This document shows, piece after piece, positions 1,782-6,762 of a DNA stretch of 64,000 nt (positions are counted from its first letter, which is position 1; each line of letters starts with the position of its first letter). The notes below the pieces were generated by a model. The model did not search any database. It was not told the origin of the DNA and was given only the letters and a program-made list of their open reading frames with translations. Position numbers and translations under genes: made by a program. The stretch is from Manis javanica (lineage: Eukaryota; Chordata; Mammalia; Pholidota; Manidae), in NCBI RefSeq assembly GCF_040802235.1, contig NC_133165.1, positions 19,191,623-19,255,622 of the forward strand, in the 5' to 3' direction.

Positions 1782-1859
1782 TTCCTCTTGCTTGTTGCAT
1801 CAAGAAACGTCTTTGGTGAGTGATTTGGGGCGGCGCCTTCCTCAGGGGAATCCAACATT

Positions 1860-1877
1860 TGGGGGCTCGTCCGGGAT
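1860..1877 (+). promoter_or_regulatory. Primer-binding site, tRNA-Pro
   Basis: TGGGGGCTCGTCCGGGAT starts two bases after the 5' LTR. This 18-mer is the tRNA-Pro primer site used by murine-leukaemia-type gammaretroviruses. It is intact. Confidence 0.92.
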
Positions 1878-1920
1878 CGGGCGTCCACCCCGCTTCACTC
1901 CCGAAGTCGCTCTTGGAGGA

Positions 1921-1930
1921 AGAGGTAAGA
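1921..1930 (+). promoter_or_regulatory. Leader splice donor
   Basis: AGAG|GTAAGA fits the consensus 5' splice site, with the cut after 1924. It lies between the primer site and the packaging hairpins, as in murine leukaemia virus, so spliced RNA would lose the packaging signal. The same motif is kept in the outer copy (minus strand). Confidence 0.65.
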
Positions 1931-2082
1931 TTAGTGGCGCCTTGAGTTGTATGTGTTCTGTTTTCTGTTTCAGTGAGACCGGTCGGAGTTCTGAAGGGTA
2001 CCCGCTGTCTGGCAGCCGTCTCAATCCCGTAAAGGGGCTGTGACTGCGGTCGGTAGACGTACTAGAGCACCGCAGGCTGCAA

Positions 2083-2136
2083 CCCTGGGGGACGCCCCAG
2101 GGAGGTTGGGAGGCCAGGGACGCCTGGTAGCCTCCC
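2083..2136 (+). promoter_or_regulatory. Packaging core: two GACG-tetraloop hairpins
   Basis: Hairpin 1 (2083-2102) is an uninterrupted 8-bp stem CCCTGGGG/CCCCAGGG closing the tetraloop GACG. Hairpin 2 (2108-2136) has outer stem GGGAGGC/GCCTCCC and inner CCAGG/CCTGG around a second GACG loop. Paired GACG hairpins (SL-C and SL-D) are the known core encapsidation signal of gammaretroviruses. Both are conserved in the outer copy at 11300-11353. Pairing is read from sequence; function is inferred. Confidence 0.8.
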
Positions 2137-5300: not shown

Positions 5301-5980
5301 TTGCTTACAGAGTTCCCAGCAGCCTTACCAGGTGAGTAAAGAAGGTCACTTCCTGGCAGGTGCAGAGACCTCGAGAAGAGAAGAATTCATCCAAATCTAC
5401 AGGTACTGCAGGCAAAGCCTGATGGCAAGTCTGGCTTGGCTGTCTGGCCTCAAGAGGCCTTTAAAAGTTCAATCTGAAATTCCTTACAAAAAGTTCCAGC
5501 AAAGCATATTTAAAAGAGCCTGTGTAATCAATTGCTCTTCTTGCTGCACCTGTGCAAATAATCAAGCCAGCTGTTAATTATTTTCTTAACCTAGTTACTT
5601 CTAGTAAAAATGAGAGTGATTTTAGAGAGAAGTATCGTTTCAATAATGTAGCCTCCTTCCAGAATAAAAAATCTAACTCCAGATGTTGCTACATAACCTA
5701 ATAACACAATTTGTTTTATCTTGCCTAGAAGCCACAAAACTGCAAATAGTAATAAAAATGAAACCCAGAATAGAAGCGCCAGCCTTCTGAAGCCCTCTCA
5801 ACTGACCAGTGATGGAGACCTAGCTGCACCCTTTACTGCACCCCCTTCTCAGCACGAAGCAGCCAGAGCGGTCATCGCCCCTTTTCCCTAGCAGCAGCTA
5901 GAGTCTCTATCTGTAGAAGAAAGAATGAGACCATACCCATAGCCTTCCCTGGTAAAAACAGGTATTTAATCCCTCCTCCC
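2356..5980 (+). other. AT-rich non-coding body in place of gag-pol
   Basis: About 3.6 kb without a recognisable gag, protease, reverse transcriptase or integrase motif in any frame; open frames are short and mostly lie within shadows of low-complexity sequence. The longest on the sense strand is 81 codons (5332-5577), with a cysteine-rich end and no family I recognise; it is nearly the same in the outer copy, but so is the surrounding non-coding DNA. An A-rich run with CAAAAA units lies at 3811-3841. The segment is shared, at roughly 98% identity where I compared it, with the outer provirus (about 7510-11080). Its origin (decayed retroviral, captured host, or other) is unknown. Confidence 0.75.
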
Positions 5981-5992
5981 AAGGGATGGTAG

Positions 5993-6733
5993 GCTTGTAA
6001 CACTGGAGTGACCCCATGTGTCTCTACTTCTGCCTTCAACTCCTCCCGTGATTTCTGTATCATAGTCCAGTTAGTACCCAGACTAATGTATCATGATGAC
6101 TTATCATTCGTGGCAGAATTAGAACCTAAACTAAGGTATAAAAGAGAGCCAGTCTCACTCACTCTAGCTGTATTACTAAGAGTAGGAGTCGCAGCCAGAG
6201 TAGGACCAGGGGCAGCTGCAATTATACAAGGAAACCAACATTACAAAGGACTAAGAATAGCTATCGATGAAGATTTGAGAACTATAGAACAGTCTATTTC
6301 TAAACTTGAAAAGTCCCTAACCTCTCTCTCTGAAGTAGTGCTGCAAAATAGACGAGGGTTAGATTTACTATTTCTAAAAGAAAGTGGATTGTGTGCAGCT
6401 CTAAAAGAAGAGTGCTGCTTCTATGCAGACCATACTAGAGTAGTAAGAGACTCAATGTCTAAATTAAGAGAAAGATTAGATCAGCGAAAGCGAGAACGAG
6501 AAGCTAACCAGAGCCTGTTTGAATCCTGGTTTTCTAGATCCCCATGGCTTACAACTCTAATATCCACTTTGGCAGGACCCCTGCTTATTTTTATATTGCT
6601 CCTCACCTTAGGTCCCTGCATTTTAAATCGAGTAATAACCTTTATTAGAAAAAGAGTAAGTGCTGTGCAGGTGCTAATGCTGAGACAACAGTATCATACC
6701 CTCACACATCAAGAAGACACCAACATTCCATGA
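5993..6733 (+). CDS. env: env: SU C-terminus and complete TM, open frame
   Basis: A 246-codon frame follows a TAG stop (5990-5992). It begins ACNTGVTPCVST, the C-terminal SU motif of gammaretroviruses, and runs through a furin-type site RYKR (ends 6145), a fusion-peptide region (EPVSLTLAVLL), a heptad-rich segment, the LQNRRGLDLLF immunosuppressive-type motif (6341-6373), a CX6CC disulfide motif (6392-6418), a membrane span (about 6545-6625) and a tail with YHTL. There is no signal peptide and no start codon at the frame's beginning; the first in-frame ATG is in the YHDD segment about 50 bases before the cleavage site. TM itself is uninterrupted. Whether any protein is made is unknown; SU is absent, so a functional receptor-binding glycoprotein is not possible. 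Confidence 0.85.
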   Translation, partial: ACNTGVTPCVSTSAFNSSRDFCIIVQLVPRLMYHDDLSFVAELEPKLRYKREPVSLTLAVLLRVGVAARVGPGAAAIIQGNQHYKGLRIAIDEDLRTIEQSISKLEKSLTSLSEVVLQNRRGLDLLFLKESGLCAALKEECCFYADHTRVVRDSMSKLRERLDQRKREREANQSLFESWFSRSPWLTTLISTLAGPLLIFILLLTLGPCILNRVITFIRKRVSAVQVLMLRQQYHTLTHQEDTNIP

Positions 6734-6746
6734 TTAGAATGTTCAG

Positions 6747-6762
6747 AAAAAGAAGTGGGGAA
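6747..6762 (+). promoter_or_regulatory. Polypurine tract of inner provirus
   Basis: AAAAAGAAGTGGGGAA abuts the 3' LTR, 13 bases after the env stop. It is the plus-strand primer site for reverse transcription. Confidence 0.85.

Follow-up and report, generated by a model that had tools for sequence, protein, structure and literature searches.

We analyzed a 64,000-nucleotide stretch of the pangolin (Manis javanica) genome (NC_133165.1, positions 19,191,623 to 19,255,622; contig C10 in our search), referred to here as the window, in which the interval 1858 to 6762 is the interior of a complete long terminal repeat (LTR) element, copy A (1335 to 7285). As judged from sequence comparisons, this element very probably belongs to a multicopy, LTR-flanked, gammaretrovirus-like family with no detected gag or pol, which is likely packaged and reverse transcribed by gag-bearing proviruses of the same genome and shares their ends around a body of likely other origin.

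Copies A and B and their family

Copy A lies on the plus strand, nested within the env end of a second copy on the opposite strand, copy B, which spans 12076 to 281 and is interrupted by A. Both have the features of a non-autonomous LTR element, namely, an LTR pair, a primer binding site (PBS), a polypurine tract (PPT), and a target site duplication (TSD). The LTR pairs had 0 substitutions in A and 0 in B, corresponding to 95% upper ages of 1.3 and 1.4 million years (My), respectively, at a rate of 2.2e-9 per site and year, which follows PMC12584738. The two copies were 97.9% identical over 2356 to 5812, 97.7% identical over 1720 to 6069, and 76% identical over 6070 to 6733; their R-U5 regions were identical, and their U3s did not align. 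An earlier sequence-only reading of the window had described two independent insertions of one design, and we agree, as both have identical LTR pairs, their own 4-bp TSDs, and the same parts. That reading had missed the nesting of one copy in the other and the match of their env ends and U3s to different types of provirus.

To see how many such copies exist, we searched the genome (2,559,957,944 bases [2.56 Gb], 63 contigs) with a 601-base probe from the body. The best 40 of 2,232 first-look candidates were scored, and the 5' and 3' ends of the 39 copies other than A and B were fetched. All 40 scored matches were 90 to 100% identical to the probe. In this best-scoring set, 37 of 41 copies (A and B included) had the full R-U5, the leader, and the start of the body. 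LTR pairs were obtained for 29 of the 41 (again counting A and B), with LTR ages from 0 to 6.1 My; 17 of the pairs differed at 0 or 1 site. Matching 4-bp TSDs bounded 27 of the 29 (the misses were copies 17 and 23), and 20 different TSDs were found. Copies 15 and 16, which lie 222 kb apart on contig C5, share their TSD and have flanks that are identical left and right; they are either a single insertion lying within a duplicated region or a duplicate introduced by the assembly. No other pair among the 29 shared flanks (224 to 282 bases compared on the left and 249 to 753 on the right), and the 29 LTR pairs therefore represent 28 independent insertions. The 3' end was not at the expected place in nine copies. 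Of the five that we followed, two (copies 31 and 36) have body deletions that bring the env end and LTR nearer, and three (copies 33, 34, and 35) are interrupted.

The association of body and env end was also found from the other side. A search with the env end of A (tail A) gave 1,174 candidates, the best 40 of which were scored; 27 were outside the body list, and 20 of these were fetched. All 20 had the 3' end of the body upstream of tail A, the match exceeding 300 bases in 19 and covering 152 in the other. The family was thus amplified as its coding-free form. Many LTR-flanked copies with one gag/body junction were what the sequence-only reading had expected of such a family, and only two copies would have spoken against it; the genome holds dozens.

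We examined the body for retroviral genes with Pfam. At E≤1, no retroviral family was found in copy A between 2300 and 6000, where the set covered 63 of 76 six-frame open pieces of at least 30 amino acids; the other 13 were four in the leader, eight on the minus strand, and the env end, which was scanned apart. In a control with forty-residue cuts, TLV_coat was found in 6 of 6 env pieces and RVT_1 in 2 of 6 decayed L1 reverse transcriptase (RT) pieces, and within the window RVT_1 was recovered in 3 of 6 pieces of the L1 ORF2 region. The search was blind to the piece at 5813 to 5989, just before the env end. Short or decayed scraps of pol in the body could therefore escape detection, given the misses in the control, and it is within this sensitivity that the body agrees with the earlier claim that it contains neither gag nor pol.

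In the leader, the PBS, which we take to be that of tRNA-Pro, a splice-donor-like site, two GACG hairpins, and the first eight gag codons are present in both A and B. The hairpin stretch was more stable than its shuffles (z, −3.1 and −2.6 for the folds of A and B), and 32 of 37 copies have two GACG within it; the stability of the complete leader of A was not significant (z, −1.3). We infer that these are hairpins of the packaging type. The eight gag codons had been claimed for both copies. The codons are indeed there, but the ATG is lost in B and is present in 29 of 37 leaders, and the eight-codon peptide is therefore not required.

Ends shared with gag-bearing proviruses

Gammaretroviral proviruses with gag are very abundant in this genome. 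In a search with Gag_p30, all 150 places scored, among 5,453 candidates, were over the cut-off, and 135 of the 150 matches had no stop. We sampled 20 gag-bearing proviruses spread down this list and the 3' ends of 10. R-U5 (83 to 100%) and leader (87 to 94%) were common to the element and 19 of the 20, and in 18 of these 19 the match extended to 2352, at gag codon 8. A gammaretroviral gag start was visible in 17 of the 20 5' ends. When the first 645 bases of the body were compared with the same 20 5' ends, none matched behind the leader, and the one body-like match was in a flank. A gammaretrovirus sharing R-U5 and leader, as predicted for the helper, was thus found. The proposal that a helper copied the coding-free form gains support from this common anatomy, on which the argument rests.

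The 3' ends are shared as well. TLV_coat covers 5993 to 6733 of copy A (E, 8e-94). Among database proteins, the best match to the env end of A was 71% identical over nearly its full length, and P0022 was 83% identical over 71% of it. Homology to the env of the gag-bearing relatives begins at about 5920 to 5980, and some database env proteins align already from 5813 to 5867. Among the 20 sampled proviruses, U3 type a was found on 3 and type b on 12, and env was present in 7 of the 10 sampled 3' ends. Two U3-a proviruses carry tail A and four U3-b proviruses carry the corresponding end of copy B, tail B, each at 96 to 97%; one has an env of its own. The likely source of tail A is the lineage of type-a proviruses. 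Between tails A and B, the proportions of nonsynonymous and synonymous differences (pN and pS) were 0.10 and 0.70 in the env frame; in the other two frames, pS was 0.30 and 0.11 and pN was 0.23 and 0.28. This is the pattern that would come from envelopes kept functional.

Copy A tracks B along the body until about 6070, where it changes over to an env end and U3 of type a. Within the env remnant, A matches the remnant shared with B up to 6070 and type-a proviruses beyond it; B is nearest to type-b proviruses over most of both sides of this point (about 80% in 6040 to 6070). From these patterns, A most likely derives from a B-type element. A and B part near the start of R and at 6070, which is what would be seen had RT taken U3 and the env end from one template RNA and everything else from a second. 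Other copies show further combinations: tail A gives way to a B-like tail in copy 24 (between 6370 and 6470) and in copy 26 (near 6470), copy 17 has tail A joined to a U3 only 78% like type a, and copies 21 and 23 have a B-like tail joined to a fourth U3. The U3s of 36 typed copies formed clusters of 17, 12, 4, 2, and 1. On a tree of 37 leaders, in which the label of copy 27 (b) was set by hand, the U3 labels need 11 changes where the least possible is 4, and the well-supported branches force at least 5 changes for type b. The family has likely swapped its tail end with gene-bearing relatives several times by template switching.

These observations suggest a route, of which we infer packaging, mobilization in trans, template switching, and the supply of pol by the proviruses. 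The element's promoter would give an RNA with the provirus leader and GACG hairpins, which provirus Gag would package. Provirus RT would then copy this RNA from the tRNA-Pro site, and provirus integrase would insert the product with 4-bp duplications. Where element RNA and provirus RNA share one particle, RT may switch templates near the 3' end, and the element would acquire a new env end and U3 with its R-U5, leader, and body unchanged.

A separate difference between A and B lies within the body. Fifteen sites between 2875 and 3000 are G in A and A in B, and 14 of 34 such A/G differences fall within 100 bases (0 of 2,000 shuffles). In the other copies read, types a and e mostly have G and types b and c mostly A; in type d, one old copy mostly has G, and copy 21 is half and half, switching midway. 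The cluster resembles the trace of a single episode of editing or hypermutation that became fixed in one lineage. We did not retain a reading as APOBEC or ADAR activity, as the type-d copies are mixed and the neighbor counts are not decisive.

Origin of the body and alternative explanations

One segment of the body, the only part used as a protein query, has relatives in other mammals. The open frame at 5242 to 5577 found 8 database proteins when used alone and 80 when used with an alignment (E≤1). This frame is probably not coding; its three differences between A and B are uninformative on the point. The named sources of the 80 proteins were the arctic fox and two predicted Manis pentadactyla isoforms, one with 28 of 30 residues the same as in A and B and the other weak in the profile search (E, 0.08) and 86% identical to the window over 21 residues. 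The two isoforms are annotated as AP-2 beta-like and histone H2B, and their body pieces end or begin near donor-like (5331) and acceptor-like (5366) sites, as if an exon. Older copies of the body, 72 to 86% alike, were found in the flanks of two sampled gag-bearing proviruses (L126 and L160), and one of these copies directly follows an R-U5-like stretch with no leader between. There, a gag-bearing provirus appears to have been inserted within an older body copy. Searches of viral contigs (protein and DNA) and of prokaryote genome contigs found no relatives.

The body looks like an older LTR-element family. Both the protein matches and the older flanking copies point tentatively to an older endogenous retroelement of the same host as a candidate source. 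Still more tentatively, the family could be a long-lived satellite retrovirus, with a non-coding RNA body tens of My old and shared with carnivores, that wears the ends of whichever gammaretrovirus is active and switches templates again and again with each type of helper, gaining a new promoter and env end as it does so; we consider this broader picture possible but somewhat doubtful. A single capture of the body from a host transcript, in the manner of an oncogene, is unlikely. The body pieces in the two predicted pangolin isoforms and the splice-like sites beside them would fit such a capture; matches of 80 database proteins to one segment, with the arctic fox as well as Manis among the named sources, and older body copies in two provirus flanks, one of them behind an R-U5-like stretch, do not.

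Defective proviruses are common, and several copies have further deletions or interruptions of the body, as would be seen if A and B were two ordinary proviruses that had decayed in place and lost gag and pol by chance. We give this almost no credence, since 37 of 41 copies have one and the same junction of leader and body start, more than half of the LTR pairs differ at no more than one site, and the flanks differ. Spread by duplication of DNA, or homogenization by gene conversion, in place of reverse transcription could be exemplified by copies 15 and 16, as one insertion duplicated. For the family it is very improbable: no other pair among the 29 shares a left or right flank, the 27 matching TSDs are of 20 kinds, and within each copy the two LTRs agree in U3 type, as expected from reverse transcription. 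Because env and U3 change quickly, plain divergence rather than exchange might be thought to separate the 3' ends of A and B. However, identity is about 97% before a single point, 76% after it, and 100% again in R-U5; tails A and B match different types of provirus, each at 96 to 97%; and copies 24 and 26 switch within the tail, which leaves divergence hardly believable as the explanation.

It is important to note that several observations count against a mobile family that depends on these proviruses. Of the 41 copies, which are the best-scoring ones and not a random sample, 4 are without the full R-U5 and leader (copies 3, 18 [leader only], 39, and 40), and for 12 no LTR pair was obtained. 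When an LTR could start at more than one place, we preferred a start with a matching TSD; without this preference, 23 of 31 matched. In the Pfam control, 4 of the 6 short pieces of decayed RT went undetected. Among the proviruses, one of the 20 5' ends has no more than the first 22 bases after the LTR in common with the element, and 3 of the 10 3' ends have no env at the expected place; what the sampled proviruses were shown to bear is gag and, in 7 of 10, env. The U3 of copy 17 may reflect divergence rather than exchange.

Related systems and other features of the window

We compared the family with known systems by description. The closest architecture is that of koala recKoRV1, a recombinant of koala retrovirus (KoRV) and PhER (PMC5696478), which likewise has a gammaretroviral 5' LTR, a leader, a truncated gag start, a foreign endogenous retrovirus (ERV)-like middle without coding capacity, and a truncated env end and LTR; it is also multicopy, usually has 4-bp duplications, and does not encode its own mobility functions (PMC5696478). 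The pangolin element has the same plan, with a retroviral 5' end up to early gag, a foreign body, and a retroviral env end and LTR. Unlike recKoRV1, the pangolin family has LTR ages up to about 6 My, keeps just eight gag codons, has no third copy of its own LTR inside A, and has env ends and U3s that differ between copies in parallel with several types of provirus.

Rodent VL30 (PMC4859993) is nearest in way of life. It is likewise non-autonomous, with 4-bp TSDs, a nearly identical PPT, and many copies with identical LTRs; its PBS is mostly tRNA-Gly, with tRNA-Pro in some, and it is packaged into murine leukemia virus (MLV) virions (PMC4859993). VL30 has gag- and pol-related regions with stops and no env (PMC4859993), whereas the pangolin family has none of the former by Pfam, within the sensitivity of the control, and keeps an env end with TLV_coat. 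The likeness to VL30 proposed in the sequence-only reading therefore applies to the way of life and not to membership, and recKoRV is closer.

Five pangolin lineages, ERV-Gamma.a to -e, are gammaretroviral, include PBS-Pro members, and are in part recent; they are reported with GAG, POL, and ENV, the GAG of Gamma.b being defective (PMC12584738). Matched by description only, they are likely the helper lineages or their kin. That report describes a screen of Manis pentadactyla with POL queries, which would therefore miss a pol-less family. Judged by title or the start of the abstract, no paper among those found by our literature searches treats the present one. What is known of recKoRV comes from one invasion, at an early stage; the pangolin family, similar in architecture, has LTR ages up to about 6 My and lies beside its likely helpers. 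Its exchanges can be followed from copy to copy, so that the origin of a retroviral satellite, its tracking of a helper, and its changes of promoter become open to test. A survey that relies on pol would overlook families of this kind and could take their LTRs for solo LTRs.

Some bodies of the MER4 group and HUERS-P have little coding capacity. These human ERV1 families are class I LTR families (PMC5753468, PMC4724089) and serve as a lead only.

Table 1. Features of copies A and B, by position in the window
Feature	Position	Strand	Basis or remark
TSD of copy A (TTCC), left	1331..1334	+	Same as 7286-7289
5' LTR of copy A, U3 type a, R-U5 from about 1717	1335..1857	+	Identical to 6763-7285, TGTAGG..CCAACA
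PBS, tRNA-Pro (presumed)	1860..1877	+	Sequence; exact in 29/37 copies
Splice-donor-like GAG|GTAAG ahead of hairpins	1922..1929	+	Same eight bases in 35/37 copies
First GACG-loop hairpin of leader	2083..2102	+	Folding of both copies
Second GACG-loop hairpin of leader	2108..2136	+	Folding of both copies
First eight gag codons, then stop	2329..2355	+	Gag-bearing 5' ends match up to 2352 in 18/19, no body match beyond
Body without detected gag or pol	2356..5940	+	36% GC (2356-5812); ~3.6 kb
Body segment with relatives in other mammals	5045..5629	+	80/80 database proteins found match here, 74 at E≤1e-3
Env remnant common to A and B	5950..6069	+	Sequence comparison
Env end of A (end of surface [SU] and transmembrane [TM] parts), tail A	6070..6733	+	96-97% to two type-a proviruses
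3' LTR of copy A	6763..7285	+	Identical to 5' LTR, 523 bp; PPT before 6763
TSD of copy A (TTCC), right	7286..7289	+	Same as 1331-1334
TSD of copy B (TTAG on + strand)	12077-12080 and 277-280		Both sides
5' LTR of copy B, U3 type b	11585..12076	-	Identical to 281-772, 492 bp
Copy B leader, body, and start of env end, as far as A's insertion point	7290..11584	-	
Copy B env end past A's insertion point, tail B	773..1330	-	
3' LTR of copy B	281..772	-	Identical to 11585-12076

Rfam and tRNA scans of the window found nothing, and its only short interspersed element (SINE) landmarks were two MIR matches. The stretches 12301 to 12579 and 27215 to 27539 are 69% alike in opposite orientation and represent an old interspersed repeat. 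Two decayed L1 elements (32395 to 37429 and 58422 to 62472) lie on the same strand and share pieces that are 78 to 93% alike.
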